Position numbers and translations under genes: made by a program. Positions 36,609 to 38,625 of a DNA stretch of 64,000 nt are shown one piece after another (within the stretch, counting starts at the first letter, position 1; each line of letters opens with the position of its first letter). The stretch spans positions 62,001 to 126,000 of the forward strand of contig NZ_AUEW01000004.1 in assembly GCF_000426185.1 (NCBI RefSeq). The letters are read 5' to 3'. The stretch is from Cellulomonas sp. URHD0024. GTDB lineage: Bacteria; Actinomycetota; Actinomycetes; Actinomycetales; Cellulomonadaceae. Below the pieces are notes generated by a model. The model saw nothing but the letters and a program-made list of their open reading frames with translations. It had not been told where the DNA came from and ran no database searches.

Positions 36609-37154
36609 CTACAGCGCGCCGCCGGCGGCGGCCGGTGCGTCGGTGGAGACGCCACCGTCACCGATCTGCTCGCGGGCGACGTAGTTCTCGAGGTCGAACA
36701 GGTTGTCGCCGGCACGGGTGGCGACGGTCAGCAGCGTGGTCGCGGAGGAGACCTCCTCGACCTGCTCCTTGAGGAACCAGAGCAGGAACTGCTCGCCCAG
36801 CGCGTCGTTCTCGGCGCGGGCCGCCCGGAAGATCGCCTCGATCTGCGAGGTCACCTGCTGCTCCTGCGCGAGCGCGAGCGCGATCGGCTCGGTGACCTTG
36901 TGGAAGTCGTTGCGCACGGGGCTGCCGGCCGGGATCTCGACGGCGAGGTCCCGGTCGAGGAGGTAGCGCACGATCATCAACGCGTGGTTGCGCTCTTCGA
37001 GGGCCTGCCGGTAGTAGTGCGAGGCCAGCTGCGGGAGGTCCTGGCCGTCGAACCAGACGGCGATCGCGACGTACTGCTGGTGGGCGTCGAACTCGTGGCC
37101 GATCTGCTCTCGCAGCAGTCGCAGGTAGGTGGAGTCGTCCGAGATGGTCGTCAT
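36609..37154 (-). CDS. Ferritin
   Basis: This 181-aa four-helix iron-storage protein has the ferroxidase ligands [15 protein letters not shown] and [19 protein letters not shown] (E-x-x-H), and the distal site in a helix with [13 protein letters not shown]. It resembles BfrB-type bacterial ferritins, with a C-terminal Ala-rich tail of about 20 residues. TAGCGT lies 7 nt before the ATG, so it is probably leaderless. It diverges from sigR, and DoxX follows. Confidence 0.93.
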
Positions 37155-37251
37155 GTCCGCCACGCTAGTGCCGGTCAGGCCGTTCGGCGACGCCGAACCG
37201 GACGCTGTCCAGCGTCCCGGTCGTGCCCGCGGCCCGCCGGCGGGGGCAGCG

Positions 37252-37280
37252 GGGAATGGCTCGCGGGCCTGGGCCGTTGT
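37252..37280 (+). promoter_or_regulatory. SigR-type autoregulatory promoter
   Basis: GGGAAT (37252-37257) and GTT (37276-37278) are separated by exactly 18 nt, matching the known SigR/SigH consensus GGGAAT-N18-GTT. It lies 146 bp upstream of the short sigR start and just before an in-frame ATG at 37288. Confidence 0.8.
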
Positions 37281-37411
37281 GCCTCCCATGACCTGCGCCG
37301 CCCTCGAGACGCGATCCAGCACACCCCTCACGACCGGATGGGCCCTCGGTGTCCCGGACCCCGTCACTGTGGCGTGGCCCACGCCGGTCGGTGGCCCGGC
37401 CGCTGCCGGAC

Positions 37412-37417
37412 TAGGCT
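37412..37417 (+). promoter_or_regulatory. Second, housekeeping-type sigR promoter -10
   Basis: TAGGCT fits TAnnnT and ends 8 nt before the ATG at 37426. Together with the SigR-type promoter upstream this gives a two-promoter arrangement as in Streptomyces sigR. Confidence 0.5.
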
Positions 37418-37425
37418 CGACCGCG

Positions 37426-38049
37426 ATGAGCGAGGACACCAACCGCGCCCCCGAGGCCGAGGACGACGCGGCCCGCACCGAGCGGTTCGAGGCTGAGGCG
37501 CTGGTCTACCTGGACCAGCTCTACGGTGCTGCCCTGCGCATGACGCGCAACCCGGCGGACGCCGAGGACCTGGTCCAGGAGACGTTCGCCAAGGCTTTCG
37601 CGGCGTTCCACCAGTACCGCCCGGGCACGAACCTCAAGGCGTGGCTGTACCGGATCCTGACGAACACCTACATCAACTCCTACCGCAAGAAGCAGCGCGA
37701 GCCGCAGCAGTCCCGTTCCGAGGAGATCGAGGACTGGCAGCTGGCCCGTGCGGAGTCGCACACGTCGGCCGGGCTCCGGTCCGCCGAGGCGGAGGCGCTC
37801 GACCACCTGCCGGACTCCGACGTGAAGGACGCTCTGCAGCGCATCCCGGAGGAGTTCCGCATCGCGGTGTACCTGGCCGACGTCGAGGGCTTTGCGTACA
37901 AGGAGATCGCGGAGATCATGGGAACGCCGATCGGGACGGTGATGTCCCGGCTGCACCGCGGGCGAGCCCAGCTCCGCGAGATGTTGTCGGACTATGCGCG
38001 TGGCCGTGGTCTTGTCGCCGCGGCGCCCACCACGCCGGAGGGTTCGTGA
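37426..38049 (+). CDS. sigR: Thiol-stress sigma factor SigR
   Basis: This 207-aa ECF sigma factor has region 2 ([40 protein letters not shown]), [20 protein letters not shown] and region 4 ([40 protein letters not shown]). These blocks match SigR/SigH, which controls thioredoxin, mycothiol and protein quality genes. An open frame continues in phase upstream to an ATG at 37288, so a 253-residue isoform could also be made. It overlaps rsrA by 1 bp. Confidence 0.95.
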
Positions 38050-38348
38050 TGAGCGAGTTTGACGAGTCGGCGACGTTGCCGGCGATGCACGCAGGGAGCT
38101 GCGGCAACAACTGCGCCGACGCGCTCGACCGGCTGTGGGAGTACCTCGACGCGGAGCTGGAGGCTCCCGACTCGGACGTCGTCCGAGCGCACCTGTCGGA
38201 GTGCCAGGGCTGCCTCGAGGAGTACGACGTCGAGGTCGTCGTGAAGAACCTCGTGCGCCGGGGCTGCCAGGAGGTCGCACCGGACGCGCTGCGCATGCGG
38301 ATCCACGAGCAGCTCACGGTCATGCGGGTCACCACGTCTCTCGACTGA
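38049..38348 (+). CDS. rsrA: Zinc-containing anti-sigma factor RsrA
   Basis: This 99-aa redox switch holds SigR inactive until oxidised. It has the ZAS motif HLSECQGC (H-x3-C-x2-C) and an N-terminal SCGNNCADALDRLWEYLDAE with an additional cysteine pair. Disulphide formation would release zinc and SigR. It overlaps the sigR stop (TGATG). A terminator hairpin follows at 38381. Confidence 0.94.
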   Translation: MSEFDESATLPAMHAGSCGNNCADALDRLWEYLDAELEAPDSDVVRAHLSECQGCLEEYDVEVVVKNLVRRGCQEVAPDALRMRIHEQLTVMRVTTSLD

Positions 38349-38380
38349 CCCCGCAGGACGCTGCGCGTCAGGGCATGAAG

Positions 38381-38408
38381 AAGGCCCGGTGCAGATGCAC
38401 CGGGCCTT
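38381..38408. terminator. Bidirectional terminator between rsrA and bL37
   Basis: AAGGCCCGGTGCA (38381-38393) and TGCACCGGGCCTT (38396-38408) are perfectly complementary over 13 bp with a minimal loop. It separates the convergent rsrA and bL37 genes. Confidence 0.88.
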
Positions 38409-38418
38409 GTCCGTTCCG

Positions 38419-38493
38419 TCAGGCGTTCGGACGGTTGCCGTGGTTCGCGGCGCTGCCCTTGCGGGAACGGCGCTTGCGGCCTCGCTTGCTCAT
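38419..38493 (-). CDS. Ribosomal protein bL37
   Basis: This 24-residue gene encodes MSKRGRKRRSRKGSAANHGN followed by RPNA. It matches the tiny basic large-subunit protein bL37 described from mycobacterial ribosomes (MAKRGRKKR...NHGKRPN pattern). A GGAAGA site lies about 5 nt before the ATG. It is easily missed because of its length. It lies alone, convergent to rsrA. Confidence 0.88.
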   Translation of the reverse strand: MSKRGRKRRSRKGSAANHGNRPNA

Positions 38494-38625
38494 GGGATCT
38501 TCCAATCTTCGACAGACCTGGGGGGCCGACGCGATGTCGTGAGGTGCGTGCGCGCCGGACTCGTTCCATGGTCCCACATCCTGCGGGTGCTCAAGTCACG
38601 TCGTCGTACGTCCGATGACTACGGG

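Follow-up and report, generated by a model that had tools for sequence, protein, structure and literature searches.

The sigR gene of the Cellulomonas strain analysed here probably carries two nested promoters giving rise to two leaderless or near-leaderless mRNAs, one for each of two isoforms of the sigma factor, a reading to which we assign a probability of about 0.8. From the sequence we infer the transcription start points, induction by stress, the existence of two proteins and the breakdown of the longer one. In unstressed cells, a housekeeping-type promoter (p1) with TAGGCT at 37412 would produce an mRNA starting within 0 to 2 nt of the ATG at 37426, and this mRNA would yield a short SigR kept by its anti-sigma factor RsrA. 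Thiol oxidation would free SigR, which would then fire its own promoter (p2) at 37252-37278. The resulting mRNA would begin at or beside the ATG at 37288, and its leaderless translation would give SigR', a long isoform with a disordered tail of 46 residues. With no ribosome-binding site at either start, the choice of isoform would fall to the promoter, and the stress mRNA would yield mainly the long form. The tail of SigR' would most likely target it for quick degradation, and the amplified response would thereby shut itself off.

The sigR-rsrA locus and its relatives

The stretch of DNA that we analysed, hereafter the window, is 64,000 nt long and comes from a Cellulomonas whose closest named species are C. 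humilata, C. biazotea, and C. fimi (SigR identity of 94-96%). Its features of interest are listed in Table 1. The product of sigR is an actinobacterial SigH/SigR-type ECF sigma factor, scoring above the TIGR02947 cut-off, and the ATG of rsrA overlaps the sigR stop codon. The RsrA translation contains HLSECQGC, an H-x3-C-x2-C arrangement that we take to be the zinc motif. Judged by its sigma factor and adjacent RsrA, the pair fits the SigR/SigH-RsrA thiol-stress system. A preliminary description of this DNA had noted 1) GGGAAT-N18-GTT at 37252-37278, 2) an ATG at 37288, about 9 nt past the -10, in frame with sigR and adding 46 residues, and 3) a TAGGCT 8 nt before the short start at 37426. We confirmed all three, with the promoter on the + strand upstream of sigR, the ATG at 37288-37290, and the hexamer at 37412-37417. 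Read in the long frame, TAGGCT lies inside CTA-GGC-TCG (Leu-Gly-Ser), and the 46-residue extension, which is free of stops, ends in ...GLGSTA. A perfect palindrome, GTTCGGCG-A-CGCCGAAC, occupies 37182-37198 between the ferritin gene and p2; we rejected it as a conserved operator, its core being found in 2 of 365 loci, both copies of the same place.

Table 1. Features of the sigR locus (positions in the window)
Feature	Position	Strand	Basis
Ferritin-like neighbour gene, divergent	36609..37154	-	PF00210 (query 36612-37154)
SigR-type promoter p2, proposed autoregulatory, GGGAAT-N18-GTT	37252..37278	+	Pattern scan and family counterparts
N-terminal extension of long isoform, 46 codons, predicted disordered	37288..37425	+	ATG 9 nt past GTT
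Long open frame SigR', 253 aa and stop	37288..38049	+	TIGR02947, 362.2 bits (cut-off 251.55)
Putative p1 -10 element TAGGCT, 8 nt 5' of short ATG	37412..37417	+	Sequence and relatives
sigR short isoform, 207 aa and stop	37426..38049	+	ATG at 37426
rsrA, zinc-binding anti-sigma factor	38049..38348	+	zf-HC2; TIGR03988, 84.5 bits (cut-off 62.5)

On both strands of the window, GGGAAT-N17-19-GTT has a single match, the one at 37252-37278; shuffled windows contain a mean of 0.14 matches, and 14 of 100 shuffles contain at least one. Taken by itself, the p2 motif in the window is weak evidence and mildly unusual. Genome-wide, GGGAAT-N17-19-CGTT matches six times and the reversed pattern not at all. 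We consider the arrangement to be more than chance because all 140 family loci preserve it, while a random upstream position passes the same in-frame open-start test (8-10 nt) 5.3% of the time.

The family sample consists of 80 Cellulomonas loci and 60 loci from other members of the GTDB family. In the genus, 80 of 81 genomes were matched (the miss being a 67% complete genome) and all 80 loci were taken; in the family, 117 of 121 were matched, and from the 107 matches in other genera we took 60, by score and genus coverage. Every one of the 140 loci has a SigR-type promoter, which is an exact GGGAAT-N18/19-GTT in 130, has one mismatch in 9, and two mismatches in 1. An in-frame ATG or GTG follows 8-10 nt past the GTT in 140 of 140, mostly at 9 nt. 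These findings bear out the long start proposed in the preliminary description and, as conserved anatomy, its suggestion that a Streptomyces-like two-isoform logic exists in another actinomycete family. An exact promoter lies within 450 nt in 79 of 80 Cellulomonas and 49 of 60 other loci, and all 128 have the in-frame start at 8-10 nt, the gap being exactly 9 nt in 71 of the 79 and 39 of the 49. When starts at this distance were counted in any frame, there were 79 in the 79 Cellulomonas loci, all in frame, and 50 in the 49 others, with 49 in frame, so the result is not an artefact of frame choice. The 12 remaining loci (2 with exact promoters farther upstream, 9 with one mismatch, and 1 with two) have an in-frame start as well, 9 or 10 nt past the GTT, and they are weaker evidence since sites with fitting starts were sorted first.

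Outside the family, we sampled 40 loci from 109 matched genomes elsewhere in the order and 47 from 131 elsewhere in the class. With up to one mismatch allowed, the promoter was matched in 33 of 40 and 45 of 47, respectively, and the in-frame start at 8-10 nt was found in 15 of 40 and 10 of 47. The order loci have 21 in-frame starts at distances of 3-15 nt, and 13 of these sit at exactly 9 nt. In a named set of 60 loci, 14 have the 8-10 nt start (nine Nocardioides, four from the Cellulomonas family group, and one Kineosporia), none of them Streptomyces. The arrangement is thus present in every Cellulomonas-family locus used and patchy beyond.

The N-terminal extension and its possible fate

Frequent stop codons in the extensions of relatives, earlier named as evidence that would count against a long isoform, were not found. 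Across the 128 extensions checked, the sigR frame contains 0 stops, while stops occur in frame +1 in 127 and in frame +2 in 24 (104 of 128 are open); the frame +1 stop is presumably in most cases the TAG of the p1 -10. Extensions come in 41 distinct lengths, from 16 to 102 aa, and the 130 behind an exact promoter fall into 79 clusters with less than 40% similarity, all of which have a gap of 8-10 nt and an ATG or GTG. We reject an open frame arising by chance in view of the in-frame starts in 140 of 140 loci, the open extensions, and the random expectation of 5.3%.

As a protein segment, the extension is poorly conserved and appears weakly constrained. Its pN/pS is 0.65 versus 0.01 in the SigR core (28 close pairs, which share species and are not independent), and its GC content and substitutions by codon position are weakly coding-like. 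In an AlphaFold model, residues 1-51 of the long form have pLDDT below 50; this model, used for the disordered tail alone, is of low confidence overall (mean pLDDT 64.3, pTM 0.39). The predicted disorder is compatible with, and no more than compatible with, an unstable Clp substrate.

We lean slightly toward a tail that marks SigR' for rapid breakdown. A less probable but serious alternative is that SigR' is made without being unstable, its tail tuning activity or RsrA binding, or merely permitting a leaderless start. This would fit the weak constraint on the tail and the clpP loci that we scanned. The genome has two clpP pairs, and a scan of 4 of its 12 Clp loci found no SigR-type site (at least five of six positions in the -35, GTT exact) at either clpP-pair locus or at one further Clp locus, and CGGAAT-N19-GTT before a Clp_N gene. 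At the clpP genes scanned, motifs lend the Clp arm of the Streptomyces loop no support. Against a stable SigR', the start and frame have been preserved through many length changes, and its Streptomyces counterpart is a Clp substrate (PMC5472188).

A short motif, [VLIM][ED]RP, turns up close to the tip in long isoforms from several families and is a candidate degron element. In the upstream frame it occurs in 21 of 80 Cellulomonas loci, where shuffles give 1.24 on average and at most 7, in 6 of 60 loci from the rest of the family (mean 0.91, maximum 5), and in 9 of 47 class loci (mean 0.65, maximum 4), while its 2 of 40 elsewhere in the order (mean 0.76, maximum 3) is not above shuffles. Since it is missing from most loci, we keep it as a lead.

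The tip of the long isoform also tends to carry a cysteine. Of 130 family loci, 80 encode Cys as residue 3, here at 37294-37296, and in 38 of 39 Streptomyces-type loci a Cys lies within the first nine residues of the long form. The SigR core, by comparison, is almost devoid of Cys, with one counted among 51,975 residues from 315 loci that include duplicates, and a mostly-Streptomyces set has none beyond the first nine residues of the extensions that were recognised (3,227 residues with those nine counted). It is conceivable, if distinctly improbable, that SigR' carries its own thiol switch, whereby oxidation or mycothiolation of the tip Cys would protect the tail against the protease while stress lasts; the tail would be exposed once thiols recover, and breakdown would be timed by redox state. 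Nine Nocardioides long forms examined by eye lack the tip Cys, which speaks against a universal role. At residue 3, TGT codons outnumber TGC (52 vs 28), which may also reflect selection on the nucleotides that begin the mRNA.

Ribosome-binding sites and promoter-to-start distances

The preliminary description had suggested that the long form may be translated from a leaderless mRNA, and the anatomy of the family loci fits this. Shine-Dalgarno tetramers (GGAG, GAGG, AGGA, or AAGG between -16 and -5) precede the long start, always ATG or GTG, in 9 of 130 loci, which is the chance level (8.3% for random upstream 12-mers), and precede the short start in 0 of 140. A tetramer is found before rsrA in 14 of 14 loci, the only ones among the 140 that were scored as having an rsrA start overlapping the sigR stop. 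A long start was recognised in 39 of 40 Streptomyces-type loci; it lies 44-104 nt past the promoter, and every one of the 39 is preceded by a tetramer (slightly wider window, -18 to -5). By these counts Streptomyces looks leadered and the Cellulomonas family does not. In mycobacteria, a leaderless start needs just an ATG or GTG at the 5' end, TTG and CTG being poor (PMC4633059), and the exclusive use of ATG or GTG at the long start fits this rule. As far as sequence and conservation can establish, the locus has both motifs, both starts, an open frame, and no Shine-Dalgarno sequence at either start.

The same spacing recurs away from sigR. We searched 80 Cellulomonas genomes for GGGAAT-N18/19-GTT-N4-20-ATG, the reversed control giving 9 matches in total. 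Among the 150 matches listed (to about genome G047), 46 are at sigR and 104 elsewhere; 47 of these 104 have an overall length of 39-40 nt, as at sigR, many of the listed non-sigR matches being orthologous, so that a binomial value overstates significance. A second group of 26 is at 43-44 nt. An own-genome site at C15:5464-5507 belongs to this recurring length, with an ATG some 13-14 nt past the GTT, and precedes a gene that by eye resembles a flavin-dependent oxidoreductase. Among 13 exact SigR-type sites examined in the genome itself, three including sigR have a start at 9 nt and the other ten do not, one of the latter preceding a frame recognised by eye as DnaK. The two further starts 9 nt past the GTT belong to an F420H2-dependent quinone reductase (ATG) and GPx (GTG), which are likely leaderless SigR targets.

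The short form, too, looks leaderless or near-leaderless, which extends the preliminary description, as its -10 element appears fixed 8 nt upstream. All 140 family loci have a TANNNT whose distance to the short ATG is exactly 8 nt, and in 133 of them the hexamer is TAGGCT. Our search required an ATG with a Ser, Thr, Asn, or Asp codon after it and a TANNNT at a distance of 6-9 nt on its 5' side; neither the uniform spacing nor the one hexamer was imposed by the method. Across the genome, the gap in TAGGCT-ATG pairs peaks at 6-7 nt (21 of 34), sigR being one of two at 8 nt, and the reversed control is commoner than the pattern (71 vs 34). The p1 mRNA may hence carry one or two leader bases, and TAGGCT alone is not a strong signal. 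A sigma-70 consensus scan of 36900-38500 found no promoter. GGTG, common in Cellulomonas 22-19 nt before the p1 hexamer, could be a -35 or mere codons, and no AT-rich WhiB7-type stretch as in Streptomyces was seen by eye before p1.

It is unlikely that the long isoform is made from an mRNA with a short leader of some 3-6 nt, transcribed from a point a few bases closer to the -10, on which ribosomes would still begin at ATG 37288. Start points may shift by a few bases, and the 6-7 nt favoured by own-genome TAGGCT-ATG pairs suggests that spacing rules are not fixed, but the gap at sigR is 8-10 nt, the same distance recurs at 47 of the 104 other sites listed, and the exclusive use of ATG and GTG points to transcription starting at the codon itself. 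That p2 merely amplifies short SigR, with the upstream frame a high-G+C by-product and its ATG there by chance, is barely credible: such frames are easily open (as frame +2 is in 104 of 128 loci), but a start in frame 8-10 nt past the GTT is present in all 140 loci, where a random position would provide one 5.3% of the time, and in none of the 140 does a Shine-Dalgarno tetramer precede the short start. What counts against our explanation as a whole is the 6-7 nt peak of the TAGGCT gap with its commoner reversed control, the weak constraint on the extension, the null sigma-70 scan, the 9-nt start in 3 of 13 exact own-genome sites, the patchiness outside the family, and the two scanned clpP loci, where no SigR-type site was found.

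Relation to known systems

An unstable, N-terminally extended form of SigR is known from Streptomyces coelicolor, where the promoters for sigma-R and sigma-R' are sigRp1 and sigRp2 (PMC5472188, PMC4921905). Common to both systems are a SigR-dependent upstream promoter, an in-frame upstream start, an extended isoform, a downstream promoter for the short form, and rsrA as the next gene, the Cellulomonas promoters being predicted (PMC5472188, PMC4921905). The two differ in how the starts are built. The Streptomyces long start lies 44-104 nt past its promoter with a Shine-Dalgarno sequence in 39 of 39, whereas the distance in the Cellulomonas family is 8-10 nt and such sequences are at chance level. 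In addition, the Streptomyces short form starts at a GTC with an extensive ribosome-binding site (PMC5472188), whereas the Cellulomonas short start is an ATG that appears leaderless or nearly so. The Cellulomonas locus is best read as a variant of the Streptomyces sigma-R' switch with a different build.

Another likeness is to Mycobacterium tuberculosis sigE, an ECF sigma gene in which three promoters set the isoform, one of them giving a leaderless mRNA and one being SigH-dependent (PMC10027907). However, the SigH-dependent promoter of sigE is internal and leads to shorter forms with noncanonical starts (PMC10027907), whereas the predicted stress promoter of Cellulomonas sigR is upstream and would lead to a longer form. 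For mycobacterial leaderless mRNAs, a 5'-end ATG or GTG suffices, as we propose for Cellulomonas sigR, but they represent a general mode of translation, and the available text of that study describes no sigma isoform switch of this kind (PMC4633059). Our literature search, whose coverage leaves out most subscription papers, returned no paper joining Cellulomonas, SigR, and RsrA, nor any title dealing with leaderless isoforms of SigR or with a cysteine at the tip, which is weak evidence of novelty.

If the two-promoter reading is true, another lineage has assembled a switch between short and long SigR out of two leaderless promoters, and the choice of promoter alone would set the form of the protein without a ribosome-binding site between them. 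The tip cysteine of the stress isoform would be a possible thiol switch, and sigR of Cellulomonas would offer a simple, testable case of leaderless translation as a regulatory device.
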